In this document: positions 4,318-24,785 of the stretch, piece after piece
Layout: each line of letters begins with the position of its first letter
Position numbering within the stretch: the stretch's first letter is position 1
Virus record (IMG/VR): IMGVR_UViG_3300045284_000105
Coordinates: 1-43,157 of that record
Origin: a virus
Strand: one strand, 5' to 3'
Length of the DNA: 43,157 nucleotides
Made by a program: the position numbers and the translations under genes
Notes under the pieces: model-generated
Seen by the model: only the letters and a program-made list of their open reading frames with translations
Database searches by the model: none
Told to the model about the DNA's origin: nothing

Positions 4318-5541
4318 ATGGCACGTTTGGAAGAGCTCAAGAACGAGCTCGCCGCGACGATCTTCTACGGGGAGGGTCTTGCGGAGAAGTTGCAGAACCC
4401 GGACCTCTCCGAGGCGGAGCGCGCCGACATCTCCTCGGACTTCGAGGCGGTAGAGGTCAAGGCCCAGGGTCTCGGACGGGACATCGAGAAAGAGACCAAG
4501 GACGTCGAGCGCGAGCTCCGGATCAAGGGCATCGGGCGGGACATGAACGTCCAGCGTCCCGACGAGCCCGAGCCGGTCGAGTACAAGACGCCTGTCGACG
4601 CCCTGTTCGACGACCCCATCTTCAAGCAGGCCGTCGCCGACGAAGCGTTCCGGGGCACGGACTGGAAGACCCCGAACATCGAGTTCAAGGTCACGAACCC
4701 GACCGTCTCGAACCCGGACGACCTGGAGCAGCACCTCCGGCCCGGGATCGTCCAGCCGTTCGTCTACCCGCAGCGCATCGGTGCGCTGTTCACCCAGGCG
4801 ACGATGGCCGGCAGCTCGATCAGCTGGTTGGACGTGACGTCCGCCGACGGGAAGGCCGGATACGCGGGCTACGGGACGCAGAAGCCCGGACCCGCCGGCC
4901 TGAACGTCGACGTTCACACGACCAAGGCGTCGAAGCTGGCGACGACCTACACGGTCCCGGACGACGCACTCGATGACCTGACCGCGCTCCGTTCGACGAT
5001 CGAGTCGGTCATGCTCAACGGTCCCGCGGGTCTCGGGGTCCTCGCCGAGCAGGAGTACCTCGGTGGATCCGGAGCCGGCACACCGCTGGAGTTGGCCGGG
5101 GTCGACGCTCTGTCACCGACGAACGTGACCGGGAACGGGACGAACTTCGTCTCGGACATCCTGTTCGCGGCGATGGACATCGAGGCCCAGACCGGTGCGC
5201 CGGCGACGGCCGCGGTGGTCAACCCGATCGACTACTTCAACATCATCACGTTGGAGGCAGACGACGGTCGGCCGCTGTTCGCCCCGTTCGGTGGCGCGTA
5301 CAACGACCCGAACCTCGGGTTCCCGATCGTGCGGTCGAAGGCCGTCGCGAACGGAACCGTGTACGTCGGGGCCTGGAACCTGTCGATCCTCTACACCCGG
5401 CAGGCCGTGAACATCCGGGCGACGTCTGAAGGCATCGGCCTCGCGGACAAGAACCTGACGATGTTCGTCGCCGAGATGCGGCAGGCATTGATCCACCCCT
5501 ACGGCAAGGCGCCGTTCCGGTTGGTCAGCCTGAACACGTAG
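4318..5541 (+). CDS. Major capsid protein (HK97 fold)
   Basis: 407 aa. The first 75 residues are charged and helical (LEELKNELAATIFYGEGLAEKL...), matching the cleavable delta/scaffold domain of HK97-type capsid proteins. The rest has HK97 core features: GIVQPFVYPQRIGALF, SISWLDVTSA, VPDDALDDL, EQEYLGGSG, TAAVVNPIDYFNI, and GFPIVRSKAVANG near the C-terminus, ending with a P-domain-like MFVAEMRQALIHPYGKAPF. The start is ATG 4318 with GAAGGGAG just upstream; an ATG at 4297 in the same frame lacks this spacing. The 80 bases before it hold no convincing promoter. It directly precedes the sugar island. Confidence 0.93.
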   Translation: MARLEELKNELAATIFYGEGLAEKLQNPDLSEAERADISSDFEAVEVKAQGLGRDIEKETKDVERELRIKGIGRDMNVQRPDEPEPVEYKTPVDALFDDPIFKQAVADEAFRGTDWKTPNIEFKVTNPTVSNPDDLEQHLRPGIVQPFVYPQRIGALFTQATMAGSSISWLDVTSADGKAGYAGYGTQKPGPAGLNVDVHTTKASKLATTYTVPDDALDDLTALRSTIESVMLNGPAGLGVLAEQEYLGGSGAGTPLELAGVDALSPTNVTGNGTNFVSDILFAAMDIEAQTGAPATAAVVNPIDYFNIITLEADDGRPLFAPFGGAYNDPNLGFPIVRSKAVANGTVYVGAWNLSILYTRQAVNIRATSEGIGLADKNLTMFVAEMRQALIHPYGKAPFRLVSLNT

Positions 5542-5568
5542 TACGAGGCAGAGGAACGTGGGGGTGGG

Positions 5569-6552
5569 ATGGTCGACGCCAGCGCGAAGCCGTCTCGCCC
5601 CCACACCCCTCGTGCTCTCATCACCGGCATCACGGGCCAGGATGGGTCCTATCTCGCGGAGTTCCTCCTCGAGGAGGGCTACGAGGTTCACGGAACCATC
5701 CGACGGACGTCCCTGCCGAACACCGACCGATTGGACGGGTTCAGGGACCAGCTTCACCTGCACCACGCGGACCTGACCGACGCGACCGGCCTCGCCGGGG
5801 TCATCGCGGAGGCGGATCCCGACGAGGTCTACAACCTCGGCGCGCTCTCAGACGTGCGTATCTCGTTCGAGACGCCCGAGTTCTCCGGGAACGTAACCGG
5901 CCTGGGCTGTGCGCGGATACTGGAACTGCTCCGGACCATGAAGCCCGAGACGCGGTTCTACCAGGCCGGTTCCTCGGAGATGTTCGGTGAGAACCCGAAC
6001 ACCCCGACCTCGGAGACCGATGCGTTCCATCCGGTGAGTCCCTACGCCGTGGCGAAGGTCTACGCGCACGGGATCACCAAGGTCTACCGCGAGTCCTACG
6101 GGATGTTCGCGGCTAACGGCGTGTTGTTCAACCACGAGTCCGAGCGCCGCGGGGTGGACTTCGTCACCCGGAAGATCACCCTCGGCCTCGCCGACATCGT
6201 GGCCGGTAGAGCCGACGACCTCGTCCTCGGGAACCTCGACGCGAAGCGGGACTGGGGCCACGCGCAGGACTACGTCCGGGCGATGTGGCTGATCCTGCAC
6301 GCCGAGGAGCCGTCGGACTACGTCATCGCGACCGGGGAGACGCACTCGGTCAGGGAGTTCCTTCAGATAGCGTTCGACATGGTCGGGCTGGACTGGCGGC
6401 GCTACGTGAAGACCGATCCGAAGTTCTACCGGCCGGTCGACCCTCCGATCCTCCTCGGTGACGCCTCGAAGGCGCAAGCCCTGCTCGGGTGGGAACCACA
6501 CGTCCGGTTCGAGGAACTCGTCCGGCTGATGGTCGAGAGCGATCTGAAATGA
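5569..6552 (+). CDS. gmd: GDP-mannose 4,6-dehydratase
   Basis: 327 aa short-chain dehydrogenase/reductase that converts GDP-D-mannose to GDP-4-keto-6-deoxy-D-mannose, the first step to GDP-fucose or GDP-rhamnose. Visible: Rossmann motif GITGQDG (20-26), GSSEMFG (134-140), active-site YAVAK (Tyr159, Lys163), and the family signature NHESERRG (188-195) followed by FVTRKI. The length fits the family. The loop usually reading AAQSHV reads GALSDV here, a departure at a conserved spot. GGGGGTGGG precedes the ATG. It ends in an ATGA overlap with the next gene. It lies between capsid and neck genes, so it should be made late. Confidence 0.92.
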   Translation: MVDASAKPSRPHTPRALITGITGQDGSYLAEFLLEEGYEVHGTIRRTSLPNTDRLDGFRDQLHLHHADLTDATGLAGVIAEADPDEVYNLGALSDVRISFETPEFSGNVTGLGCARILELLRTMKPETRFYQAGSSEMFGENPNTPTSETDAFHPVSPYAVAKVYAHGITKVYRESYGMFAANGVLFNHESERRGVDFVTRKITLGLADIVAGRADDLVLGNLDAKRDWGHAQDYVRAMWLILHAEEPSDYVIATGETHSVREFLQIAFDMVGLDWRRYVKTDPKFYRPVDPPILLGDASKAQALLGWEPHVRFEELVRLMVESDLK

Positions 6553-7292
6553 ACGAAGACGTTCGGATCGTGGTCCATTCCTACGCCGGCGACGTCCATC
6601 AGGTCCGCGACGCCCTGGCTCAGTACAAGCACCACCAGGCGCCGCTGGTCATCCTCTCGCCGGAGGATGCACCGGTCGAGATCGACGGGACGGAATGCCG
6701 TTCAGCGGGGCTTCGTGCCTACACGGGTCGCACGTCGCTGGAACGGCAGAAGGCTCACTTGGAGCTGCTTCTGGACTTCCCCGAGAAGTGGTTCCTCCTG
6801 CACGATTCCGACTCGGTCTGCCTGGAACCGGTGCTCCCGGAGTACCTGTACGAGGCCGACACGGTCTTCTACAACGCCGCGCCGACGCAGCGCTACCTGG
6901 CGTCCATCGGGGACGGCGGGGCCGAGGAGTGGGGGGCGCTCGTCCCCAACGCCTTCCAGCCGCCGCTGTTCATGTCCCGTCAGAGCCTCGAGAAGCTCCT
7001 GACGGTTGCGGACCAGACTATGCCGCAGCTGCCGCCGTGGGCGCAGCTGATCGACTGGCACTTCGCCATCATGGCCCAGGCCGCGGGTCTCAAGTCCCAG
7101 GCGATGCCGGACGGCATCAGCCGTCCCATCTGGGGCACCTACGAGATCGCCCGCGTCTACGCATCGGTGCGGACCCGGGGCATCATCTTCCTGCACTCGG
7201 TGAAGACGAAGGAAGCGCTGGACGTCTTCGTGACCGCCCGAGCCGAGTACAACATCGACCCTGAGGGGGAACAGCTCTGCGGGTCGTGGTGA
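6549..7292 (+). CDS. Glycosyltransferase-like protein, GT-A type (putative)
   Basis: 247 aa. A DxD-type motif (HDSDSVCL, Asp86-x-Asp88) follows a hydrophobic strand WFLL, as in GT-A glycosyltransferases that bind a nucleotide sugar with a metal. The N-terminus (VVHSYAGDVHQV, LVILSPEDAPVEI) matches the first domain of the protein at 9487-11013 (VVHCYQGDAPMV, LILSPADSPVRI) closely enough to call them paralogues. No signal peptide or membrane segment. The start is ATG 6549 overlapping the gmd stop; an in-frame start at 6489 would overlap far more. The likely donor is the GDP-sugar made by its neighbours; acceptor unknown. Confidence 0.65.
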   Translation: MNEDVRIVVHSYAGDVHQVRDALAQYKHHQAPLVILSPEDAPVEIDGTECRSAGLRAYTGRTSLERQKAHLELLLDFPEKWFLLHDSDSVCLEPVLPEYLYEADTVFYNAAPTQRYLASIGDGGAEEWGALVPNAFQPPLFMSRQSLEKLLTVADQTMPQLPPWAQLIDWHFAIMAQAAGLKSQAMPDGISRPIWGTYEIARVYASVRTRGIIFLHSVKTKEALDVFVTARAEYNIDPEGEQLCGSW

Positions 7293-8188
7293 CGGGCGGC
7301 GCTGGCTTCCTCGGCTCCCATGTGGTCGAGCGGTTGAGCGCATCGGGACACTTCGTTTTCGTCCCGCGCAGCGCCGAGTACGACCTGCGGACCTGGGTCG
7401 GTGTGGCGCGGTGCATGGCCGCAGGACACCCGGACGTCGTGATCCACCTCGCCGCGGCGGTGGGTGGTATCGGTGTCAACGAGGCCCACCCGGGGATGTT
7501 GCTGCACGACAACGCCATCATGGGGCTGCACCTCATGGAGTGGTGCCGGAAGGCCGGCGTTAGCAAGTTCGTCACCATCGGGACCGCCTGCGAGTACCCC
7601 GAGGACGCGCCGCTGCCGCTGCGCGAGGACGACCTCTGGAACGGCTACCCGACGCCCGTTACCGCGCCCTACGGGATCGCGAAACGGCTCCTGCTCGCGC
7701 AGGGACAGGCCTATCGGGACGAGTACGGGTTCAACGCCATCCACCTGATCCCGACGAACCTCTACGGACCCAGGGACAACTTCGACCGCCAGACGTCCCA
7801 CGTCATCCCGGCGCTCGTCCGACGGTTCTCGGAGGCCGTGAAGGAGGGCCGCGACCTCGTCCGCTGCTGGGGTACGGGCAAGGCCACGCGGGAGTTCCTG
7901 TACGTCGAGGATGCCGCGACGGCGATAGTGACGGCCACCGAACGCTACGACTCACCCGAGCTGATGAACCTCGGCACCGGACAGGAGACGTCCGTGGCAT
8001 CCGTGGCGCAGCAGATCGCGGACATCTACGGGTACAAGGGCCGCATCGGCTGGGACGACTCCCGCCCGGACGGTGTCTCACGACGGCGGTTGGACATCGG
8101 GCGGGCCTGGTCGGAGATGGCGTTCCGTGCCTCCACGCACCTCGAGGACGGGCTGAAGGCCACCGTGGAGTGGTTCGAGGCGCAATGA
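7286..8188 (+). CDS. fcl: GDP-L-fucose synthase-like epimerase/reductase
   Basis: 300 aa SDR-family enzyme. Rossmann motif TGGAGFLGSH, then HLAAAVGGI, the segment MLLHDNAIMG, active-site PYGIAK (Tyr129, Lys133), Cys102 in GTACEYP (family: GSSCIYP), and His172 in SHVIPAL. These match GDP-L-fucose synthase, which epimerises and reduces the gmd product using NADPH. GTG 7286 overlaps the previous gene, but the protein then begins MVTGG and lacks the first residues of the first strand. A CTG at 7277, seven bases after GAGGGGGA, would restore LRVVVTGGAG and may be the true start. It could instead be a related sugar epimerase/reductase such as an RMD-type enzyme. Confidence 0.85.
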   Translation: MVTGGAGFLGSHVVERLSASGHFVFVPRSAEYDLRTWVGVARCMAAGHPDVVIHLAAAVGGIGVNEAHPGMLLHDNAIMGLHLMEWCRKAGVSKFVTIGTACEYPEDAPLPLREDDLWNGYPTPVTAPYGIAKRLLLAQGQAYRDEYGFNAIHLIPTNLYGPRDNFDRQTSHVIPALVRRFSEAVKEGRDLVRCWGTGKATREFLYVEDAATAIVTATERYDSPELMNLGTGQETSVASVAQQIADIYGYKGRIGWDDSRPDGVSRRRLDIGRAWSEMAFRASTHLEDGLKATVEWFEAQ

Positions 8189-8952
8189 TTAGCCTGTGCG
8201 TTCCCACCCGAGGACGACCAGGACGGTTCCGGACGATGCTCCGCTCCGCCAAGGCTACCGCCGCAGGACCCTTCGAGGTCTGCGCGTGGCTGGACGACGA
8301 CGACCCGTCCGATTACCCCGAGGATGCGATCGTTCGCTACGGACGAGGTCCGAGGCCGTACATCGACGGGAGTCTCTGCACCTCGGGACTCTGGTCGAAG
8401 GCATGGGACCTCGCCACCGGTGACATCGCGATGCTCGCGGCCGACGACATCCTCTTCCACAGTCCGGGCTGGGATGCGGCGGTCGAAGCGGAGTTCCAGG
8501 CGGTGCCCGACCGCATCCTCATGGCCTACGCCGACGACGGGACCAGGCGGAAGGCACCGGTCAACCCGTTCGTTCACCGTCGATGGATAGAGGCCGCGGG
8601 TTTCACCCCCGACGGCTGGCAAGGCTGGTTCTCCGACGAGTGGATCTGGCAACTCGCGGCAGAGCTCGGGCGCGTGCGGTTCCTCAAGCAGGTGCGGATA
8701 GCTCACTTCCAGCGGAAGGGCTCGGACGCGACGTACCGGGACGGTGAGGCGGCGCGCGAGGCTGTGGGAGGGTGGCAGGGGATGCGTGAACGGTTCTTCT
8801 CGTCCGAGATGGTCGCGAGACGCGACGTGCAGCTGAGCAAGCTCGCAGCGCTGATGGACTCAGGGCCGCTGCCGCTTCCTGATCCCGTACCGGATTGGCT
8901 CACCGAGTCCGTGACACGAGCGATGGCCTCGCGTGTCGTAGGTGCTGGATAG
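8185..8952 (+). CDS. Glycosyltransferase family 2-like protein
   Basis: 255 aa. It opens ISLCVPTRGRPGRF, the typical first strand and loop of GT2-type transferases, then CAWLDDDDPSDYP (36-40), and the DxD-like LAADDILF (85-89) following SKAWDLATGDIAM. SDEWIWQLAAELG near residue 155 fits the acceptor-side acidic motif. No membrane segment. ATG 8185 overlaps the fcl stop as ATGA; the in-frame GTG at 8170 is less likely. It would move a sugar from an activated donor, perhaps the GDP-deoxysugar made upstream, to an unknown acceptor. Confidence 0.78.
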   Translation: MISLCVPTRGRPGRFRTMLRSAKATAAGPFEVCAWLDDDDPSDYPEDAIVRYGRGPRPYIDGSLCTSGLWSKAWDLATGDIAMLAADDILFHSPGWDAAVEAEFQAVPDRILMAYADDGTRRKAPVNPFVHRRWIEAAGFTPDGWQGWFSDEWIWQLAAELGRVRFLKQVRIAHFQRKGSDATYRDGEAAREAVGGWQGMRERFFSSEMVARRDVQLSKLAALMDSGPLPLPDPVPDWLTESVTRAMASRVVGAG

Positions 8953-8956
8953 AGTC

Positions 8957-9490
8957 ATGGTTGTGGACGCGCAAGCGTGTGCCTGTCATGACGAAGCGAT
9001 GTATTGGCACAAGAGTCCCAGATACAAGGCTGGTGGGCGTTGGGAATGTGCCGTTACAACCCGTGAGCGTTCATTGCGGGCAGCGCGAGTGGATATAGAG
9101 GCTACCCGTCAGCGATGTCGCGCGTATCTTGCCGATAACCGTGATGCTATCAACGCGAGGCGTAGAGAACGGCGAAGGCTAGAGCCAGAACTACGCCAAG
9201 TGGCTTACGAGAAGACGCGGCAATGGCGGCAAGCGAATCATGACAGGGTGCTGGCCAACAACCGTCGCAGGAAAGCCTTACGAGCGGGAGTGCCTTCGGA
9301 CAAGCATTCTCGGGCTGAGGTGTGGGAACGAGATCACGGTAGGTGCCAACTCTGCGGGGTTATTCTCGATCCAGCGAACTGGCATGAAGATCACATCGTC
9401 CCCCTGTCGCTCGGAGGTCCGGATACCCTCGCCAACGTCCAAGCGACGTGTCCGCCTTGCAATCTGAGTAAGGGAACGAGGGTCGCGTGA
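8957..9490 (+). CDS. HNH endonuclease (free-standing)
   Basis: About 177 aa. The C-terminal third is an HNH domain: VWERDHGRCQLCG, then NWHEDHIVPLSLGGPDTLANVQATCPPCNLSKG with two CxxC pairs for zinc and the His-Asn-His core. The middle is basic and helical (INARRRERRRLEPEL), as in DNA-binding HNH proteins of the AP2/NUMOD kind. Start uncertain: ATG 8957, GTG 8942 or ATG 8999 are all in frame, none with a strong ribosome site. Codon use is visibly more A/T-rich than in the sugar genes on both sides, a sign of separate acquisition. It ends with a GTGA overlap, so it is fitted exactly between two glycosyltransferase genes. Confidence 0.85.
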   Translation: MVVDAQACACHDEAMYWHKSPRYKAGGRWECAVTTRERSLRAARVDIEATRQRCRAYLADNRDAINARRRERRRLEPELRQVAYEKTRQWRQANHDRVLANNRRRKALRAGVPSDKHSRAEVWERDHGRCQLCGVILDPANWHEDHIVPLSLGGPDTLANVQATCPPCNLSKGTRVA

Positions 9491-11013
9491 ATGCCGATAC
9501 CCTCGTGGTTGTTCATTGCTATCAGGGCGATGCGCCCATGGTCGAGGCCTTCCTGCCTCAGTATCTCCATCACCAGCGTCCAGTCCTGATCCTCTCCCCT
9601 GCGGATTCTCCCGTTCGAATCGAGGCGGAAGGTGTCGAGTGTCGCTGGGTGGGTCAGCGAGGTTACTTCGGGCAGGCGTCGTTGGATCGTCAACGGGCAC
9701 ATCTGCAGGTGTTGTTGGAATACCCATACAAGTTCTACCTGCTCAATGACGCCGATTCGATGTGCCTCTCTCCGGAGATTCCCTCTTACCTGTTCGAGAA
9801 TGCAGAGGGCACTCTGTGGTCTACTGAAGTCAAGGAGGGCAGGCCACATCCGTCTCCGTACCCTAAGCTGGCCTGCCATCCGCCGTACTTCCTGACGCGG
9901 GACACGATCGAACGGCTGCTGGCGGTCTGGGAGCGGATACCGCTTCACCCGGAGACGCCGTTCATCGACTACCACATGATGGCGGCGACGTGCGAGGCGG
10001 GCGTGGCGCATCGGTCCTATCCCGACGGACGGTCGTTCCCGGCATGGCGGCATAGCTCGATCCCTGAGACGAAGGAACTCGGCCACGATTACGTCCACGT
10101 CCAGGAGGCCCAGGGCATCGACGGGGCGCAGCGCATGGCGGCGCAGGTCCAGGCCCAGGGCGTGGTGTTCGTTCATTCGGTGAAGCACCCTGAGGTCAGG
10201 GATCAGCTCGTCGCGGCCTACGAACGGCGCCGACCGCGGGTACTAAGGGTTCCGTCCGTTCCTACCGCACTCGCGAACGATGCTGACCTGAGCGTCCTGG
10301 TGGCGTTCCGGGACGACACCGAGGATCAGCACCGGACGAAGCTGTGGGACGTCATCCAAGGACTGCTGGCGAGCCAGCTGCCGCAGGCCGAGGTGGTCGT
10401 CGAGTCGGACGACGGGACGCCGTTCTGCAAGACCGCCGCGCTGAACCGCGCCGCTGCGCGTGCTAGTGGCTCCGTGTTCTACATCCTCGACGCCGACTCC
10501 TGGGTCCCGGCGTATCAGGTACGGGAGGCGCATCGCTGGATCGTGAACGGCAAGGCGTGGGCGAAGCCCTGGAACATGAAGTACAAGCTCGGTCCCGACG
10601 CCACCGCCGAGATACTCCAAGGCGGCTGGGACGGCGCCTACAGAGCCGAATGGCGACGGGGCCTGGAGCATCAGGGCGGGTATCTGCCGGCGCCACCGTT
10701 GCTCGTATCGCGGGCTGCGTTCGAGGAGGTCGGCGGTCTGGACGAGCGGTTCAACGGTTGGGGTTCGGAGGACGTGTCGTTCTCCCAATCGCTGCAGGCC
10801 TTGTTCGGCAAGCCGATGATGGGACGCGGCGGGTGTGTCCATCTGCATCATCCACGCATCGGCCGCTCGGGGAACGACCGGTGGGAAGGTCAGACGGAAG
10901 AGGACTACGCACGTTCCCTGGCACTCGCGGCTGAGTACCGCCGCGCCTCCCGGACCCCGATCCTCATGCGCGAGTTGATCGCGAATCGGAAGGTGACCGC
11001 CGGTGCTGGATGA
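9487..11013 (+). CDS. Two-domain glycosyltransferase
   Basis: 508 aa. Domain 1 (about 1-245) is a paralogue of the 6549-7292 product and carries LLNDADSMCL (Asp88-x-Asp90). Domain 2 (about 264-505) is GT2/GT27-like: LSVLVAFRDD, YILDADSW (the DxD, around 335), then GGLDERFNGWGSEDVSF (416-432), the acceptor/divalent-metal motif of the galactosyltransferase C-terminal family. This suggests two transfer reactions in one chain, or one active and one regulatory domain. GTG 9487 overlaps the HNH stop (GTGA). It is the last gene of the island; the next genes are small neck genes. Confidence 0.82.
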   Translation: MNADTLVVVHCYQGDAPMVEAFLPQYLHHQRPVLILSPADSPVRIEAEGVECRWVGQRGYFGQASLDRQRAHLQVLLEYPYKFYLLNDADSMCLSPEIPSYLFENAEGTLWSTEVKEGRPHPSPYPKLACHPPYFLTRDTIERLLAVWERIPLHPETPFIDYHMMAATCEAGVAHRSYPDGRSFPAWRHSSIPETKELGHDYVHVQEAQGIDGAQRMAAQVQAQGVVFVHSVKHPEVRDQLVAAYERRRPRVLRVPSVPTALANDADLSVLVAFRDDTEDQHRTKLWDVIQGLLASQLPQAEVVVESDDGTPFCKTAALNRAAARASGSVFYILDADSWVPAYQVREAHRWIVNGKAWAKPWNMKYKLGPDATAEILQGGWDGAYRAEWRRGLEHQGGYLPAPPLLVSRAAFEEVGGLDERFNGWGSEDVSFSQSLQALFGKPMMGRGGCVHLHHPRIGRSGNDRWEGQTEEDYARSLALAAEYRRASRTPILMRELIANRKVTAGAG

Positions 11014-13045: not shown

Positions 13046-13441
13046 ATGACGGCGCTCTCGAAGGATCAGATCCTCAGCGCGAACGATGCCGACTTCGAGC
13101 TGGTCGACGTGCCCGAGTGGGGCGGCAAGGTCCGCGTCAAGACCCTCACCGGCGACGAGCGGGACGCCTACGAGCAGTCCTTGATCGACCAGCGGGGGAA
13201 CGTCCTCGGACCGAAACTCGCCGGCGCTCAGGCACGGCTCGTCGCGCTCACAGCGGTCGACGACGACGGCAAGCGGCTCTTCGCCGATGCCGACGTCAAG
13301 GCGCTCGGGGCGAAGTCTGCCCAAGCACTCAACCGCGTCTTCGAGGTTTCCATGCGGCTGTCTCGACTGACCCAGCAGGACGTCGAGGCGCTCGTGGGAA
13401 ACTCCAACGGCACCCAGGACGAGAGTTCTACTGCTTCCTAG
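13046..13441 (+). CDS. Tail assembly chaperone, short form (gpG-like)
   Basis: 131 aa, ATG start two bases after the tail tube stop. Charged, with DERDAYEQSL and VFEVSMRLSRLTQQDVEAL, typical of gpG-like chaperones that coat the tape measure protein during tail assembly. It ends 13 codons after a canonical slippery heptamer at 13396-13402. Most ribosomes should make this short form; a fraction should slip into the -1 frame and make the long form. Confidence 0.85.
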   Translation: MTALSKDQILSANDADFELVDVPEWGGKVRVKTLTGDERDAYEQSLIDQRGNVLGPKLAGAQARLVALTAVDDDGKRLFADADVKALGAKSAQALNRVFEVSMRLSRLTQQDVEALVGNSNGTQDESSTAS

Positions 13442-13608
13442 CCCTGTCCTTCGGGTGCCCGAACGTGGATGAGTTCTTGAGGGGTATCTCCTCACGCCAG
13501 GTTGCGGAGTGGGAGGCGTATTTCACGCTGCAACGACGCCGCGAGAAGTCGGGCGGTCAGACCCCTGCTGAGAAGTTCCGGCAGTGGGCCGAGGCCCAGG
13601 AGGCGTAA
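13046..13608 (+). CDS. Tail assembly chaperone, -1 frameshift form (gpGT-like)
   Basis: The same start as the short form, but a -1 slip at GGGAAAC (13396-13402) after Asn119 continues in the next frame with LQRHPGREFYCFLALSFG and 68 extra residues to TAA at 13606-13608, about 187 aa in total. The extension (VDEFLRGISSRQVAEWEAYF, then AEKFRQWAEAQEA) has no good start codon or ribosome site of its own, yet looks like real gpT-type protein with VAEWEAYF, a motif common in these extensions. Its stop overlaps the tape measure ATG. Join is 13046..13402 and 13402..13608. Confidence 0.87.
13396..13402 (+). promoter_or_regulatory. Programmed -1 ribosomal frameshift site (G GGA AAC)
   Basis: In the chaperone frame the codons are GTG-GGA-AAC, giving the X_XXY_YYZ heptamer G_GGA_AAC known from lambda G/GT and many siphophages. 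The zero frame stops at 13439-13441, while the -1 frame stays open to 13608. I could not fold the downstream RNA to test for a stimulatory structure. Confidence 0.88.
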
Positions 13609-16600
13609 TGGCGACCGTCTCCGAGATCTGGGTCAAGGTCAACGCAGACATCACGGGCCTTCAGCGCGGACTCCTCACGTCGGGGTCCGAGCTGAAGGCC
13701 TTCTCTGCGACTGCAACGAAGTCCGTTGCGACGACGAACGCCGCCGGGGCGAAGCTCGGGAGTTCGTTCTCCGGTGTCAGCGCGACGCTGTCGAAACTCG
13801 CGCCGGCGTTCATCGCGATCGGCGGACTTGCGGTGGCGGGGATCGTCAAAGGCATCTCGGCGACGACCCAGTGGGCCTCCGAAGTTCGCTCGCTCCAGAG
13901 GGTCACAGGACAGACGGCGGAGTCCGCTTCTGCGCTCGCCGGTGCCGCGGCGCAGCTGGGGATCCCAGTGTCCCAGTTGACGACGGGGTTCGGGCTGCTG
14001 TCGAAGAACATCGTCAACGGCTCTGTCGGTCTCACGAAGTACGGCATCGCGACACGGGACGCCAGCGGCCAGATCCTTCCCTTCGACGATGTCCTCGGGG
14101 CCATCTCGGACCGCTTCAACTCGCTCCCCACGGCGATGGACAAGGCCGCGTTCGCGCAGAACGTGTTCGGCAGGTCAGGGAAGACCCTGATCCCGATCCT
14201 GTCCCAGGGTCGGGCGGGGCTCGCCGCGCTCGAGGCCAAGGCCAAGGACCTTCACCTCGTGCTGTCACAGCAGGCGTTGGACGATGCGAAGAACCTGAGC
14301 CTGGCGGAGCGGCAACTGGGGCTCGCGTTCAAGGGCGCGTCCATCTCGATCGGTCAGGCGTTCATCCCCATCGCAACGCAACTCGTCCATGCGCTCACGA
14401 TCGTGGTTGACGTCATCGCGTCCATCCCCCAACCCTTGAAGCTTGCCATCCTTGGGTTTTCTGTGCTCACCGGAGGCATCGCAGCGGCGGTGAAAGTTGG
14501 CGGGTTCTTCGCCGACACCTGGAAGAAGGTCCTCGGGGTTGCCGGGAACACGGCCGAACTGAACCAGGCCGCGCAGAGCGCCGGGAACGTCACGGACGCC
14601 TTCAGCCAGATCTCCCAGGAGCTCGCGAACTTCGCGAACATCGCTTCGGCCGTCCGCGGTTCCACGATCGCCGCCACCGCTCCTATCGCCGCGATGGGCG
14701 TCAAGGTCAACACCGAGGCGGACGCTGCGCTCGCGGCCTCACTCGCCAACACGAAGTTCGCGAAGGCTACCTCGGGACTGATCGTGCCAACGTCGGAACT
14801 GGCGACGGTCTCCAACCACGCCGCGGAGGGCATCACCGCTACCGGCGCCGCGGCGAGTGGCATCACGTTCGCGGGCGCCGCGACGGCGTTAGGTGCGTTG
14901 GCCGTCACGGTCGGATTCGTGGTCGTGCAGATTAAGGACGCTAAGGACGCGCTCAACCAGTTCTCGGCGAGCGTCGCCGTGAAGCTCGGGCAACTGGCGC
15001 AGGGCGGGATCTTTGCGAAGGCGATCCGCGAGCAAGCCGCCCGGCCGCTCCCGACGCAGGCCGCACCCGGGGCTGGACCGGGTCTGGGCAATGGCTTGTT
15101 CCAACAGGTCCAGCAGACCAAGGCAGCCCAACAGGCGCTCGAGGAGTTCCGCCAGGCTCAACTGCTGGCCGCTGGGTCGTCGACCGCGCTCGCTACGTCG
15201 ATCAAGGGCATCCTGAAACCTGTCACGGATATGCAGACCCCGACCAAGGATGTCGCTGGGTTGCTGTCGCAGTTGAACGTCGCGAGCACGAAGGCCACAG
15301 GTGGGCTCGACCATCTCACGGCGGTCTCGGGTCAGGACTTCTCCTCCATCCGCGACGACCTGCTGAAGGCGATCAACGACCCGAAGACCACCGTCGCGCA
15401 GCTGCCCTCCATCTTCGGCGGTGCTCTTGCCAAGGTGAAGGAACAGATGAACGCCTGGCACGACTCGATCGTGTTGAACTTCGGCGGGGCGCAGGCCGCA
15501 ATGTCGCAGTTCCTGGGGCAGGCTGCGGGGAAGGGTCCGGACAAGGTCAGCTTCAACAACCTCACGGAATCCCTGAAGACCACCCAGCAGCAGTTGCACA
15601 CGTGGTCCCAGGACTTCGCGACGATCCTCCAGGAGAGCGGCGGCAAGGCGAAGACATTCCTGCAGGACATGAGCGCGAACGGGTTGGAGTCTGTCGGCAT
15701 CCTGCAGGTGGTGGCAGATCAGCCGAAGAAGATACGGGACCAGTTCCTCAAGAACTACAACGACGTCAATAAGTCCACGAACACCATCGCAGACCAGATC
15801 ACGACGGCCTTCGGCAAGGCTGCGGACCGCATCGTCCTGCAACTGAAGAACATCGTTCGTGCCATCCAGGGACTCCCTCCCATCAAGCCGAAGACCGACA
15901 CGTCGGCGCTCGATGCGCTGATCGCGAAGCTCCGAACAGCGGCAGGGCTCGCCTTCCAGATCTCGCAAGGCAACAAGCCCGGGACCGGGCCCGTGAGTCC
16001 CCGGCAGATCCCTCATAGCGGAGGGCTCATAACACGAGCCGGGCTCCGGAAGTTCCACGCCGGCGGAGCCGTAGGGCGGATGCACGATGGCGCGTTGGCC
16101 ACCACGAGGCTGAAGCCGAAATACCGTGCGCCGTTGTTGCCAACGGGGCCTGGCCAATACGACAAACTCAAGCCTCGTTATTCCACGCCGCGCGGGCATG
16201 GCCAGATGTGGATGAACTGGTCGTCGAAGATCGGGGAGCTCCATCCCGCCACCGCGATCGGCTTCTGGAATCGTCGTCTCGGCGGTAAGTACGTGTTGGG
16301 TCAACATGCCAATCCGAACGTGGTGGCATCCTGGGACCTCCCATCATCCTCGGGCTACAACGCGGAGACGTTCCCGTGGGGTGACCCGTTCCACATCAAG
16401 TTCAACGCGGGCATGTACAAGCTGATGCACAGTGACAACAAGGGCTGGAACAACCCTTACTTCTGGAACGCGGAAACCCGTAGCCTCGCGCATGAGATGG
16501 GGCATGCGTTCGGCCTGGCTCACGTTCCCACCACTGCGAACCTGATGTCGGGGATCGGTGGCGACTATCCGTGGTTCATCAACGCCAACCAGGTTACGAA

Positions 16601-16931
16601 GATCAAAGAGCGGCTGGCCCCTCGCATGCACGGGGGCGGTCTCGCTGCGGATGAGGTGCCTGCTGTTCTGCAGGTCGGCGAGTTCGTCATGCAGAGGAGC
16701 GCCGTCGACAAGATCGGCCTGTCGAACCTCTTCGCGATGAACCGGATGCATTCCGGCGGTGCCGTCGTTCCTCCGGGTGCTTCTCCGGTCGGTAGCGCTG
16801 GGATGGACGAGGCCGCGATGGAGCGGGCCTTCCGACGTGCGCTGCGGGCGGAGCGGGAGAAGCTCTACGTCGACCGGAAGCGGTTCGGTAGGAACCTCGA
16901 CGAGGCTGTTTTGACTGACGGGCACTGGTGA
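13608..16931 (+). CDS. Tape measure protein with embedded metzincin-like protease domain
   Basis: 1107 aa. The first 100 residues (VSEIWVKVNADITGLQRGL) are typical of tape measure proteins, and the middle is a long Ala/Lys/Gln-rich helical region with hydrophobic segments (around residues 63-80, 280-300 and 420-445). These proteins set tail length and enter the cell envelope at DNA injection. Unusual: residues about 867-1002 hold a zinc-protease-like domain with HEMGHAFGLAH (His962, Glu963, His966, His972) and a Met-turn-like NLMSGIG (Met980), the metzincin signature. It lies inside the normal C-terminal G/H-rich repeats (KFHAGGAV before; RMHGGGL and RMHSGGAV after). Start ATG 13608 overlaps the chaperone stop. 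Confidence 0.92.
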   Translation: MATVSEIWVKVNADITGLQRGLLTSGSELKAFSATATKSVATTNAAGAKLGSSFSGVSATLSKLAPAFIAIGGLAVAGIVKGISATTQWASEVRSLQRVTGQTAESASALAGAAAQLGIPVSQLTTGFGLLSKNIVNGSVGLTKYGIATRDASGQILPFDDVLGAISDRFNSLPTAMDKAAFAQNVFGRSGKTLIPILSQGRAGLAALEAKAKDLHLVLSQQALDDAKNLSLAERQLGLAFKGASISIGQAFIPIATQLVHALTIVVDVIASIPQPLKLAILGFSVLTGGIAAAVKVGGFFADTWKKVLGVAGNTAELNQAAQSAGNVTDAFSQISQELANFANIASAVRGSTIAATAPIAAMGVKVNTEADAALAASLANTKFAKATSGLIVPTSELATVSNHAAEGITATGAAASGITFAGAATALGALAVTVGFVVVQIKDAKDALNQFSASVAVKLGQLAQGGIFAKAIREQAARPLPTQAAPGAGPGLGNGLFQQVQQTKAAQQALEEFRQAQLLAAGSSTALATSIKGILKPVTDMQTPTKDVAGLLSQLNVASTKATGGLDHLTAVSGQDFSSIRDDLLKAINDPKTTVAQLPSIFGGALAKVKEQMNAWHDSIVLNFGGAQAAMSQFLGQAAGKGPDKVSFNNLTESLKTTQQQLHTWSQDFATILQESGGKAKTFLQDMSANGLESVGILQVVADQPKKIRDQFLKNYNDVNKSTNTIADQITTAFGKAADRIVLQLKNIVRAIQGLPPIKPKTDTSALDALIAKLRTAAGLAFQISQGNKPGTGPVSPRQIPHSGGLITRAGLRKFHAGGAVGRMHDGALATTRLKPKYRAPLLPTGPGQYDKLKPRYSTPRGHGQMWMNWSSKIGELHPATAIGFWNRRLGGKYVLGQHANPNVVASWDLPSSSGYNAETFPWGDPFHIKFNAGMYKLMHSDNKGWNNPYFWNAETRSLAHEMGHAFGLAHVPTTANLMSGIGGDYPWFINANQVTKIKERLAPRMHGGGLAADEVPAVLQVGEFVMQRSAVDKIGLSNLFAMNRMHSGGAVVPPGASPVGSAGMDEAAMERAFRRALRAEREKLYVDRKRFGRNLDEAVLTDGHW

Positions 16932-16932
16932 T

Positions 16933-18030
16933 ATGTGGACCGTCTCGATACTGAACCTGAACGGTTCCACCCGCGTCGCGGACCTGCCGTGGTCGTCGCT
17001 GTCGTTCACCCACGTCCTGAACGCACCGGGCGCCTGCGAGATAGGGGTCAGTATCGCCAAGGTGTCCCGGGCCGACATCGAGCCGGGCCAGTCCGACTAC
17101 GTCATCAAGCAGGACGGGACGATCCGGGCCGAGGGCCGTATCTGGAACGCCCGCGTCGATACGAACGCCAGCACACTCACGGCCTCCATCACCGGTGAGG
17201 GCATCGCGGGGATCCTCGCACGCCGGCTCGTCGATTGGGAGGCGCGGTACGAACCGGTCACCGAGTCACCGACGAACATCAACACCCTCTACGCCATCTC
17301 CCAGGAGGACATCCTGTGGGACCTCGTCGAGCGGACCCAGGCCGAGACCGGAGGCGACCTCGGCATCACGCAAGGTGCGCACACCGGCGGGACACACAAC
17401 CGTCGCCGCTGGTACTGCGCGGAGGACGGAGTCTTCCTCGCGGATGTCTTCGATGACTTCGCGTCGCTCTCGGACGGTATCGACTGGGCCATCTCCCCGA
17501 CGCTCACCGACTCGGGGTCTCGGGAGCTCGTCACGTTCAACCCTCACCGGGGAACGGACCTGTCGGGCTCCATCGTGCTCGACGGCGCGGTGTACCTGGA
17601 CACGCTGAGCTACGAGATAGATGCGGGTCAGATCGTGACGCGGGGACGGTCGGTTGCCGAGGGGGACTGTGACCCTCCGATGGGTGACGTGACCGACGCT
17701 GGCGCTCTCGCGGACTACGGGCTGCTCGAGGATTTCGAGGGTGCCAACTCGGACCAGGTCGATGACGCCGGCGAGCTCGCGGCGATGCTGCTGTCCCCAC
17801 ATCCGGTCGTCGGGATGGACGTCACCTACGAACTGACCGATGGTCCGGCGATCGGGGACTTCGACGTGGGTGACCGTATCCGTGTCGTGGACGCGAACCG
17901 TCCCGGCTGGCCGCTGGACATCATCGGCCACGTCCAGGAGGTCGAGGTCTCCGTCCAGCTTCCCGATGCGACGGATGAGACCACGTTCGTTCGGGTGAAC
18001 GTCTCCGAGTGGTTCGAGGAGACGTCGTAA
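16933..18030 (+). CDS. Minor tail protein, ReqiPepy6 Gp37-like (tail hub region)
   Basis: 365 aa. Begins MWTVSILNLNGS, with VSIAKVSRADIEPG and RAEGRIWNARVD in the first 90 residues, then SITGEGIAGILARRL, and a C-terminal half with GQIVTRGRSVAEG and FDVGDRIRVVDANRPG. This resembles the Gp37-like tail proteins of actinophages that combine distal-tail and hub-like domains. It follows the tape measure gene by one base, the usual place for distal tail protein and hub. Likely forms the tail tip around the tape measure. Confidence 0.75.
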   Translation: MWTVSILNLNGSTRVADLPWSSLSFTHVLNAPGACEIGVSIAKVSRADIEPGQSDYVIKQDGTIRAEGRIWNARVDTNASTLTASITGEGIAGILARRLVDWEARYEPVTESPTNINTLYAISQEDILWDLVERTQAETGGDLGITQGAHTGGTHNRRRWYCAEDGVFLADVFDDFASLSDGIDWAISPTLTDSGSRELVTFNPHRGTDLSGSIVLDGAVYLDTLSYEIDAGQIVTRGRSVAEGDCDPPMGDVTDAGALADYGLLEDFEGANSDQVDDAGELAAMLLSPHPVVGMDVTYELTDGPAIGDFDVGDRIRVVDANRPGWPLDIIGHVQEVEVSVQLPDATDETTFVRVNVSEWFEETS

Positions 18031-21846: not shown

Positions 21847-22569
21847 ATGTCGATCAAGTATCAGTTCGCGCAGGCGGATGGAGCGCCCGACTGGACGGTG
21901 GGTAAGGAGCAGTTCGACCCCGTCTGGGACAACGCCCGTGACCGTCTGCGCTTCCACCGAGGCCAGAAGTTCACCGTGGAGAAGCGGCCGGATGGCGCGA
22001 AGCACACGGTGACGCTGGGCGAGGCCAAGGCCGACCTGAAGACCCGGCTTGACCAGAACGACACCGACGTGAAGTTCATCGTCCGGAGCCTCAGCGACGG
22101 GTTCGCGCTGGCGTTCCGGAGGCACCAGACCGTCGAGCCCGGCGGGATCCAGGTCCTCACCGTCGCTCGTTCACTGGTCGCTACCCCGTACATCTTCGGT
22201 GTGAATGACTGCTCGTGGCTCTCGAAGTTCACCGTCAACGAGGTGGAGCCCAGCATCGACCTCCCGCACAACGCGCACCTGCAGCACATCGACGCGATCA
22301 CCGTGGAGATCACGAAGGCACAGCTCCTCCCCGGCGACCTGCTGTTCCACCACGGTGACGAACACGTCTCCATCTACGAAGGCAACGAGCTGTGGGCCGA
22401 CGGCAGCGTGTGGGACACCGAACCCCACGACACACAGGCTCCTCGAGGCTGGCCCACGGCGATGCTCGGCACAGGTGTCCGTCGGCGTCCGATGACCCAG
22501 AACTACTACTGCGACTGGCAGAACGTGAACGGCATCTGCCGCATCGTCAAAGTGAACGGCAACCCCTGA
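21847..22569 (+). CDS. NlpC/P60-type peptidase, likely endolysin
   Basis: 240 aa, ATG with GGGAGG upstream. Residues about 100-210 match the NlpC/P60 cysteine peptidase fold: catalytic Cys122 in PYIFGVNDCSWLSKF, the strand-turn LLPGDLLFHHGDEHVSIYEG with catalytic His173. These enzymes cut peptide bonds in peptidoglycan stems. The N-terminal 95 residues (YQFAQADG, VEKRPDGAKHTVTLGEAKAD) may be a structural or binding domain. No signal peptide. It opens the lysis block, but its place directly after tail-tip genes also allows a virion-associated role. Confidence 0.8.
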   Translation: MSIKYQFAQADGAPDWTVGKEQFDPVWDNARDRLRFHRGQKFTVEKRPDGAKHTVTLGEAKADLKTRLDQNDTDVKFIVRSLSDGFALAFRRHQTVEPGGIQVLTVARSLVATPYIFGVNDCSWLSKFTVNEVEPSIDLPHNAHLQHIDAITVEITKAQLLPGDLLFHHGDEHVSIYEGNELWADGSVWDTEPHDTQAPRGWPTAMLGTGVRRRPMTQNYYCDWQNVNGICRIVKVNGNP

Positions 22570-22590: not shown

Positions 22591-23211
22591 ATGTCGAACG
22601 AAGCATCTCGTGCGAGTGAACCAGCGGGCGCGGCGACCGATGCTTTCGGGCGCGCCGTGCTGGATCCCACCAAGAACGTCCTCGACTTGGTCGAGGCTGC
22701 CATCAAGCGACAGGACGACCTGCGTGGGGAAAGTGACAAGCACCAAGAGCAGATGGCGGCTCTGCGCCATTCTCATCAGGACCAGCTAGCGAGCCTGCGG
22801 GCCGAGTACGACGACAAGCTCCGCAAGGCAGAGTCCGAGCGCATCGACGCCATCCGTGCCGTAGACGTTGGGAACGTCGCAGCGGCCGCAGCGGTGTCGG
22901 CGACTCAGGCGACCACACTTGCCGCTCAGGTTGCGACGTCCGCCGAGACGCTCCGTAACCAGGTCGCGGCGGCGGCTACCGCATCGACCGTTGCTCTCGG
23001 TGCCGCCCTGGATCCAATCCAGAAGGACATCGCTGATCTGCGCCGTGCGCAGTACGAACAGCAGGGCCAGAGAGCCCAGGTGGTCGAGGGTCGCGAAGTA
23101 AGCGGCGCGCGTGGAGCGAACATCGGGCTGTGGATCGCAGGCGGCGCCGCGATCATCGGATTCTTCCTAACCGTGGCCGCGATCGTCGTGACCATCATCT
23201 TGAAAGGCTGA
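22591..23211 (+). CDS. Coiled-coil protein with C-terminal membrane helix
   Basis: 206 aa. ATG 22591 with AAGGAAGG upstream. Residues about 25-85 are heptad-like and charged (KHQEQMAALRHSHQDQLASLRAEYDDKLRK), residues 90-140 are Ala-rich helix, and the last 30 residues form one hydrophobic helix (IGLWIAGGAAIIGFFLTVAAI) ending with a Lys. Arrangement: a long cytoplasmic coiled coil anchored by a single tail helix. No family recognised. Sitting in the lysis block it could be a holin-like, spanin-like or regulatory membrane protein. Confidence 0.65.
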   Translation: MSNEASRASEPAGAATDAFGRAVLDPTKNVLDLVEAAIKRQDDLRGESDKHQEQMAALRHSHQDQLASLRAEYDDKLRKAESERIDAIRAVDVGNVAAAAAVSATQATTLAAQVATSAETLRNQVAAAATASTVALGAALDPIQKDIADLRRAQYEQQGQRAQVVEGREVSGARGANIGLWIAGGAAIIGFFLTVAAIVVTIILKG

Positions 23212-23213
23212 GG

Positions 23214-23906
23214 ATGGATCACGGACTCGGACGCAAGCCGCAACCGCTCGACCTCCGGGACTTCCACGTCTCGCGTATCCCGTTCTACGGACCCGCCCGC
23301 GGGGCGACACGGCAGTTCTGGACGATGGGCGGGGGCGCCATGCGACTGGACCAGGGCCAGACGGGCACCTGCGAGGGGAACGCCTGGACGAACTGGCTGA
23401 TCGCCGGACCTGTGGTTCACCCCGACGTCGCCGCGTTCGCGGACGCGGGTGTCGCGGAGACCTGGGCGCGGAAGCTCTACGTGGATGCGACCGGGGACAC
23501 GTCGCTGCAGCAGGGCGCGTACACCCGTCAGATCCTCAAGGTGCTCAAGACCCGCGGTGAGATCGGAACCTACGCCGCGATGTCTACGGCCGACGAGATC
23601 GTGAACGCGCTCCTGACGGTCGGCCCGGTCTGCCACGGGTCCGACTGGTACGAGTCCATGTTCGACCCCATCTCGAAGTACGGGAACAGCTACCTCGTCG
23701 TGGATGAGTCCTCCGGAGTAGCGGGTGGTCACGCCTACTGTTTGACAGCCGTCGACCTCGCACCGGCCGATGGTCCGGCCTACGTCCGTGTCGAGAACAG
23801 CTGGGGTTCGGGCTGGGGTCACAACGGCACCGCACGGCTTTCGATAACTAACCTCCATCGCCTGTTCGTCGGCGATGCGTGGACCGCCACGGAACAACCC
23901 TTCTAG
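23214..23906 (+). CDS. Papain-like (C1) cysteine protease
   Basis: 230 aa. Motifs of peptidase family C1 in order: Gln47-Gly-x-x-Gly-x-Cys53 in RLDQGQTGTCEGNAW (oxyanion Gln and catalytic Cys, six apart as in papain), His173 in VAGGHAYCLTAVD, and Asn195 in ENSWGSGWGHNG. All four active-site residues are present, so it should be active. No signal peptide, no propeptide. ATG 23214 follows the coiled-coil gene by two bases. Substrate unknown: a virion protein, a host envelope protein or a lysis factor are all possible. Confidence 0.85.
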   Translation: MDHGLGRKPQPLDLRDFHVSRIPFYGPARGATRQFWTMGGGAMRLDQGQTGTCEGNAWTNWLIAGPVVHPDVAAFADAGVAETWARKLYVDATGDTSLQQGAYTRQILKVLKTRGEIGTYAAMSTADEIVNALLTVGPVCHGSDWYESMFDPISKYGNSYLVVDESSGVAGGHAYCLTAVDLAPADGPAYVRVENSWGSGWGHNGTARLSITNLHRLFVGDAWTATEQPF

Positions 23907-23930: not shown

Positions 23931-24785
23931 ATGTCGAAGAAAGCCTGGATCGTCCTGCTCTGCGTCGTCATCATCGTCCTGGTGTTCTGCGGTGTGCCGC
24001 GGGTTACGCGGGCCGCGAGCTCGAACGCAGGCTGGATCTCGTCGACCTGCTACAGCCACTCCGTACCAGATGACCCGCTCGTCTACCCGAACCAGCCTGG
24101 AGCGTCGCACCAGCATGACTTCGTAGGTGGACTGAACACCGATGCATTCTCGACCCCGGATTCCGTTCGTGCCGGTGGCACGTGCTCAGGGATGTCCAGG
24201 GACACGGTCGCCGAGTGGGTGCCGGCGCTCAGCACGTCGACGAAAGGCACCATCGTCCCGAGCGCGAACAAGGACCGCGACGTCCTGACCTACTACCGCA
24301 ACCCGAGCGGGATCAGGAATGTTCAGCCGTTCCCCGATGGCTTCGGCATGATCGTGGGCAACGCCCACGCGGTCTCGCAAGCGGACAACCCCGCGATCGC
24401 GGCCCAGCACCTCTGGTGGAAGTGCGGCCCCGGAGGCAACACGCATCTATCCATCCCGCCGTCGTCGTGTCCGTCTGGGTCGTACATGGTCATCGTGTTC
24501 ACGTTCCCGCAGTTCTGGGACGGCATCCAGACCCCGGCCACCGATCAGCTCGGTCACATGAGCTACACCCGCGACGCGGCGCACCCGATCATCCTCCCGC
24601 GCCTGCAGATCTTCGTCCGTTACTCGCAGGCCACCGGGACGATCGGGACGGTCTCGCAAGCCAGCGGCCCTTGGTACACGGCGCACATCGACTACTGGTC
24701 AACCTGGGAGTCGGCCGCGTTCAACTCGCTACTCGCCCGGTGCATGAACGCCGGCGTGGATTGCGGGACGGACCCAAGTCCTTAG
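23931..24785 (+). CDS. Secreted DUF1996-domain protein
   Basis: 284 aa. A clear signal peptide (KKAWIVLLCVVIIVLVF, likely cut after VTRA at residue 28). The mature part matches the DUF1996 pattern: HQHDFVGG (60-67), GGTCSG, EWVPAL, YYRN, then PFPDGFGMIVGNA, a hydrophobic FTFPQFWDG, HPIILPRLQIFVRY and a disulphide-rich end with three spaced Cys. DUF1996 proteins are secreted, mainly in actinobacteria and fungi; their activity is not established to my knowledge. The protein would be exported from the infected cell. A hydrolase or polysaccharide-binding role is speculation. Confidence 0.8.
   Translation: MSKKAWIVLLCVVIIVLVFCGVPRVTRAASSNAGWISSTCYSHSVPDDPLVYPNQPGASHQHDFVGGLNTDAFSTPDSVRAGGTCSGMSRDTVAEWVPALSTSTKGTIVPSANKDRDVLTYYRNPSGIRNVQPFPDGFGMIVGNAHAVSQADNPAIAAQHLWWKCGPGGNTHLSIPPSSCPSGSYMVIVFTFPQFWDGIQTPATDQLGHMSYTRDAAHPIILPRLQIFVRYSQATGTIGTVSQASGPWYTAHIDYWSTWESAAFNSLLARCMNAGVDCGTDPSP

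Follow-up and report, generated by a model that had tools for sequence, protein, structure and literature searches.

Peptidoglycan-hydrolase domains are established passengers of phage tape measure proteins (TMPs) (PMC1796659, PMC10194240, PMC9863714). In TM4, motif 3 of the TMP is a demonstrated peptidoglycan hydrolase that is dispensable but promotes DNA entry when the cells are stationary (PMC1796659), and the C-terminal part of a TMP reaches the distal tail (Dit, Tal) and may bear a C-terminal peptidoglycan hydrolase that aids penetration (PMC9863714). TMP-borne enzymes as such are therefore already known; in the portions of the literature available to us, mainly open-access texts, we found no metzincin, matrixin, M10 or other metalloprotease in a TMP, and a metzincin among the TMP-borne enzymes appears to be undescribed. 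Here we analyse a metzincin-like domain near the C-terminus of a TMP encoded by the window (the whole stretch of DNA under study, a whole IMG/VR virus record, 43,157 bases long and classified as linear), and compare it with homologous domains in the TMPs of other phages.

Results

We assign the open reading frame at 13605-16931 to a TMP because it lies among tail genes, because PHROG TMP families 8462, 3981, and 12506 match the N-terminal two thirds of its product, and because the TMP of a related contig passes the NCBIfam tape_meas_TP901 cut-off; a PhageMin_Tail match to the window TMP stays below cut-off. Upstream genes encode the tail completion or neck protein, tail terminator, major tail protein, and tail assembly chaperone; the TMP gene is directly 3′ of the chaperone gene and 5′ of one for a minor tail protein (Table 1). 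The metzincin is the sole enzyme domain of the window TMP, and a candidate wall hydrolase of the NlpC/P60 type is encoded by another gene. Cysteine is absent from all 1108 residues of the window TMP.

Three further loci in the window may be recorded here. A sugar cassette at 5569-11013, flanked by the major capsid gene on one side and the head-tail connector genes on the other, encodes a GDP-mannose 4,6-dehydratase (PF16363, E 1e-120), an NAD epimerase, a weak glycosyltransferase-like match, and an HNH protein, and possibly serves virion glycosylation. Directly past the tail module, 23130-23906 encodes a papain-like C1 cysteine peptidase (PF00112 over cut-off; phrog_16701 peptidase, E 2e-28) in which the Cys, His, and NSWG elements are visible, a second protease candidate; and 23931-24785 encodes a DUF1996 protein (PF09362, E 2e-24).

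Table 1. Coordinates in the window of the TMP gene, the features of its metzincin domain, and related genes
Feature	Position	Strand	Remarks
Tail assembly chaperone	13046..13441	+	phrog_344, E 4e-29
Tape measure protein (TMP) gene	13605..16931	+	1108 aa; start GTG 13605 or ATG 13608
Predicted metzincin domain	about 16176..16625	+	TMP residues 858-1007; profile, AlphaFold2 model, PDB fold matches
Putative zinc-binding motif HEMGHAFGLAH (HExxHxxGxxH)	16491..16523	+	In TMP frame; ligands invariant in all TMP copies
Met-turn NLMSG	16539..16553	+	Met invariant in 39 aligned domains
TMP boundary module GGGLAADEVPAVLQVGEFVM	16632..16691	+	Residues 1010-1029, directly past the metzincin domain
Minor tail protein	16933..18030	+	phrog_1885, E 7e-18; Sipho_Gp37 below cut-off
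NlpC/P60 protein, wall-hydrolase candidate separate from the TMP	21847..22569	+	PF00877, 29.6 bits (cut-off 23)

The original prediction had picked out HEMGHAFGLAH and NLMSG within the TMP, and both are confirmed in frame: the former occupies residues 963-973 counted from GTG 13605 (962-972 from ATG 13608), and the Met-turn methionine is residue 981, seven residues past the third zinc histidine, a spacing identical to that of MMP-1 in the alignment. As a residue motif it is not a product of chance, being absent from all 20,000 shuffled versions of the TMP (the motif by itself is expected 1.8e-5 times per protein); as a DNA pattern it is present in 26 of 100 shuffled windows and is unconvincing by itself. 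A metzincin domain had been placed at 16203-16620, and the domain stands with slightly wider limits, since the homologous domain is a little longer (Table 1). The same prediction had set the domain between G/H-rich repeats, which holds on the C-terminal side, where the boundary module follows with the pattern 'MH.GG.LAADEVPAVLQ.GEFV...', but not on the N-terminal side, where the window has short H/G-rich linkers only. A tblastn search with about residues 1000-1061, the boundary-module region, finds matches in unrelated marine phages.

Sequence profiles and predicted structure both point to a metzincin. Specifically, i) a profile built from the TMP domains of the other phages, leaving the window out, matches the window domain with E 7e-15 as its sole match in six frames, and finds no matches among shuffled decoys; ii) the profile of the whole TMP-domain family matches MMP-16 in the PDB with E 1e-7 and snapalysin over nearly its full length with E 4e-5, and a profile of the window subfamily (three sequences) matches archaemetzincin with E 4e-4 and MMP-1 with 1e-3; iii) an AlphaFold2 model based on 39 related sequences (pLDDT 68.9, pTM 0.67) has its elements in metzincin order, with, in domain numbering, a strand at 11-15, helix A at 24-35, strands at 49-53 and 73-76 (the middle strands being of low confidence), helix B with HEMGH at 97-111, a Met-turn loop, and helix C at 137-147; and iv) among the PDB fold matches listed for this model, 50 of 50 are metzincins, snapalysin first and MMPs next (TM about 0.45-0.63; snapalysin 4hx3 E 9e-4, MMP-1 and MMP-11 E 2e-3), and the best matches in a search of viral structures are metalloproteases. 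With Pfam, the window domain alone gives sub-threshold matches to metzincin families, all over one 30-residue stretch, Peptidase_M10 reaching 14.7-16.4 bits against a cut-off of 24. An earlier AlphaFold2 model from 9 sequences (pLDDT 53), whose fold matches were weak though all metzincins, was superseded by the 39-sequence model.

Helix B, the third histidine, the Met-turn, and helix C fall at metzincin positions in the predicted structure, so that the result which was to refute the original prediction, a predicted fold lacking the three-His zinc site, did not arise. We conclude from motif, Met-turn, and predicted fold that the domain belongs to the metzincin clan, and consider both the predicted metzincin fold and its carriage by a TMP well supported.

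We scanned 2.9 million viral contigs for HEMGHxxGLxH, for HELGHxxGLxH with a downstream Met, and for HE[MIV]GHxxGxxH with a downstream Met, and added an alignment-based scan. These scans returned about two hundred metzincin-like ORFs, mostly separate proteins of 150-350 residues; the HELGH pattern in particular found mostly free-standing phage metzincins, L114 being the sole TMP-borne one. Free-standing metzincin-like proteins of 270-300 aa are frequent in viral contigs (L087-L192, e.g. L097, L128, L169) and have an N-terminal '..LxxLGYFG' region in common. The suggestion that the domain might be found in other TMPs was borne out in 10 further phages, so that, counting the window, 11 phages carry 12 copies near the TMP C-terminus (the window; L194; Shambre1 gp17, or L193; L207=L237; L225=L238; L240; L239; L114=L243; L054=L241; L063=L242; and L081=L244). 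Together with sequence profile and predicted fold, these ten TMPs back the identification of a metzincin inside the window TMP. Seven of the TMP relatives exceed the Pfam Peptidase_M10 cut-off (Shambre1, L043/L194, L237, L238, L239, L240, and L243), and an independent TMP_3 match identifies Shambre1, L238, L240, L243, and L244 as TMPs.

The relative of the window is the contig IMGVR_UViG_3300047409_000572 (43,496 bases; loci L043/L194/L260), whose TMP, the one that passes tape_meas_TP901, shares 58% identity with the window TMP in residues 1-323 and 41% in the last 313 residues. It has two tandem metzincin copies, at 5485-5904 and 5995-6402 of L194, and the pair is bracketed by boundary modules, one on each side. 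In all carriers between 127 and 338 residues separate the motif from the TMP C-terminus, and in most the element GG...V..GE[FYW]V precedes or follows the metzincin; in L239 this element precedes an M23 domain. Wall hydrolases occur in the same TMP as the metzincin, each over its Pfam cut-off, in L243 (M23), L239 (M23 and SLT), and L244 (SLT), so that a single TMP at L239 2080-6711 holds M23, SLT, and metzincin together; the layout of L241 equals that of L244 by eye.

A tblastn search of 50,697 cultured-phage records with five domain queries, which could miss distant copies, found one carrier, the siphovirus Arthrobacter phage Shambre1, whose TMP, gp17, has one metzincin copy. The announcement of this phage describes a siphovirus whose tail is 190-210 nm long and leaves the domain unmentioned (PMC10793299). 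The window domain as a direct query had no match in cultured phages or viral contigs, the TMP DNA as query had none, and a whole-TMP search of viral contigs had none either, its peptide patterns being too specific; plasmids held no match to the metzincin domain. Genome contigs yielded four cellular metzincin-like proteins, one of which (L003) entered the alignment and tree. In the tree of 42 domains the window copy pairs with copy 2 of L194 (support 96/92), and the TMP copies fall into three groups, a topology compatible with one to three acquisitions of the metzincin by TMPs.

The 39-sequence alignment, in which identity to the window domain falls as low as 13%, has the same His, Glu, His, Gly, His, and Met in every member. 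Between L241, L242, and L244, dN/dS is about 0.07-0.10 in the domain and about 0.24-0.34 in the rest of the TMP, values that are rough because dS is close to saturation. Because the active-site residues are invariant at such low identity and this group is under purifying selection, we favor a working enzyme, which would bind zinc and cut.

Discussion

We hold with moderate confidence that the domain is a complete, minimal metzincin zinc endopeptidase of about 140-150 aa in the C-terminal part of the TMP, and that, as the DNA enters, the TMP would deliver it into the host envelope, where it would cut protein. The metzincin would be a plug-in module in the TMP slot elsewhere filled by peptidoglycan hydrolases. 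By analogy with the TMP wall hydrolases, the C-terminal end of the TMP would lie at the tail tip and exit the tail ahead of the DNA; the metzincin would then cut a host-envelope protein, allowing the tail contents to reach the membrane, and the peptidoglycan would be opened by another enzyme, the separate NlpC/P60 protein in the window or the M23 and SLT domains in other phages. We find delivery at entry the simplest reading, because the metzincin has both the place and the company of wall hydrolases in TMPs, and the neighboring M23 and SLT domains in other TMPs make such a role plausible. An envelope protein is the likely target because metzincins are protein endopeptidases and wall hydrolases are supplied separately. 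We infer zinc binding, activity, and delivery at entry, and as the substrate we infer an envelope protein of the host in preference to a wall peptide bridge or a protein of the tail.

Several considerations weigh against this explanation: i) a folded domain may be too wide for the tail tube; ii) metzincins usually have a latency device, yet a TMP devoid of cysteine would have no cysteine switch; iii) the window domain alone falls below the Pfam cut-offs, and the subfamily profile gives just E 4e-4 in the PDB; and iv) the model is of low confidence in its middle strands.

The phage itself could instead be the substrate, the metzincin trimming the TMP C-terminus or cutting a tail-tip protein for assembly or to unlock ejection. 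Lambda offers a precedent, its TMP being processed near the C-terminus from gpH to gpH*, and self-processing would suit the C-terminal position of the motif in all carriers and account for a protease tethered to the TMP. The rarity of the domain, found in Shambre1 alone among the cultured-phage records, speaks against it, as do the adjoining M23 and SLT domains, which act on the host wall, and the two copies in L194, a duplication unneeded for self-trimming; we regard action on the phage itself as unlikely.

Despite its fold, the domain could also hydrolyze the wall, cutting bridge or stem peptides of host peptidoglycan. It sits where other TMPs have wall hydrolases and occurs alongside M23 and SLT, and the TM4 motif 3 shows that a TMP can hold a peptidoglycan hydrolase (PMC1796659). 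Wall cutting would, however, be an additional activity, because the window has its NlpC/P60 protein and L239 already has M23 and SLT. To our knowledge no metzincin cuts peptidoglycan, and we judge this function quite unlikely.

A catalytically dead domain, serving only as a folded spacer or binding module, would fit the low identity outside the motif and the putative nature of the activity; the catalytic residues are nevertheless invariant in the 12 TMP copies despite that low overall identity, and purifying selection in the L241/L242/L244 group is stronger on the domain than on the rest of the TMP, so that loss of catalysis seems decidedly improbable. Finally, isolated HExxH motifs are common and the window domain alone is under the Pfam cut-offs, but a chance motif lacking the metzincin fold is very unlikely, the least probable reading of all, given the leave-window-out profile and shuffle results and the PDB fold matches, the extended motif with its Met-turn, and full-length homologous domains in 10 other TMPs.

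A variant of the entry role, which we think a long shot, is that the endoprotease would degrade obstructing envelope proteins, such as TMP-binding superinfection-exclusion lipoproteins of the Ltp type, and so act in counter-defence ahead of the DNA. Ltp of TP-J34 is an exclusion lipoprotein that targets the TMP (Bebeacua et al. 2013, as listed in PMC3952083).

We wish to stress what delivery of a metzincin into the host envelope would mean. TMP enzymes are known as wall cutters, and some phages would bring a protease as well; envelope proteins, besides peptidoglycan, would be a barrier that siphoviruses actively remove, or else the tail tip would be proteolytically unlocked. The TMP metzincin could be studied directly in the cultured phage Shambre1, which grows on Arthrobacter globiformis.

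Comparison with known systems

Among metzincins the TMP domain appears to be neither a classical matrixin nor an M7 snapalysin. The likeness to matrixins that had been anticipated is real in part: the domain resembles the matrixins (M10A: MMPs, karilysin) in HExxHxxGxxH, in the seven residues to the Met-turn methionine, in relatives over the M10 cut-off, and in its MMP fold matches. The closest PDB fold, on the other hand, is snapalysin, MMPs coming second, and matrixin hallmarks are missing. Matrixins have a serine directly after the third zinc histidine, where the window has Val and its relatives Val, Asn, Ala, Thr, or Pro; they have a cysteine switch, which a TMP with no cysteine cannot have; and no structural-zinc loop is recognizable by eye in the TMP domain. 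Snapalysin (MEROPS M7, the Streptomyces small neutral protease, 132 aa) is the best PDB fold match, is similarly short, and aligns with the profile over nearly its full length. Its third zinc ligand, however, is an aspartate, whereas that of all TMP copies is a histidine, and it is a free secreted enzyme, unlike the window metzincin, which is a domain of a tail protein.

The free-standing viral matrixin-like proteins, such as the Zn-dependent protease of Lactobacillus phage 3-521, have the same fold, and similar domains occur frequently in viral contigs as proteins of 150-350 aa, but they stand outside the tail proteins. In position, the closest counterparts are the peptidoglycan hydrolases of TMPs (TM4 motif 3, Rpf-like, SLT, M23, and NlpC/P60), likewise enzymes in the C-terminal part of the TMP and presumably delivered at entry, whose boundary modules resemble those of the metzincin and which it adjoins, as M23 and SLT, in some TMPs. 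The difference lies in the expected substrate, the hydrolases cutting the wall and the metzincin belonging to a clan that cuts proteins.
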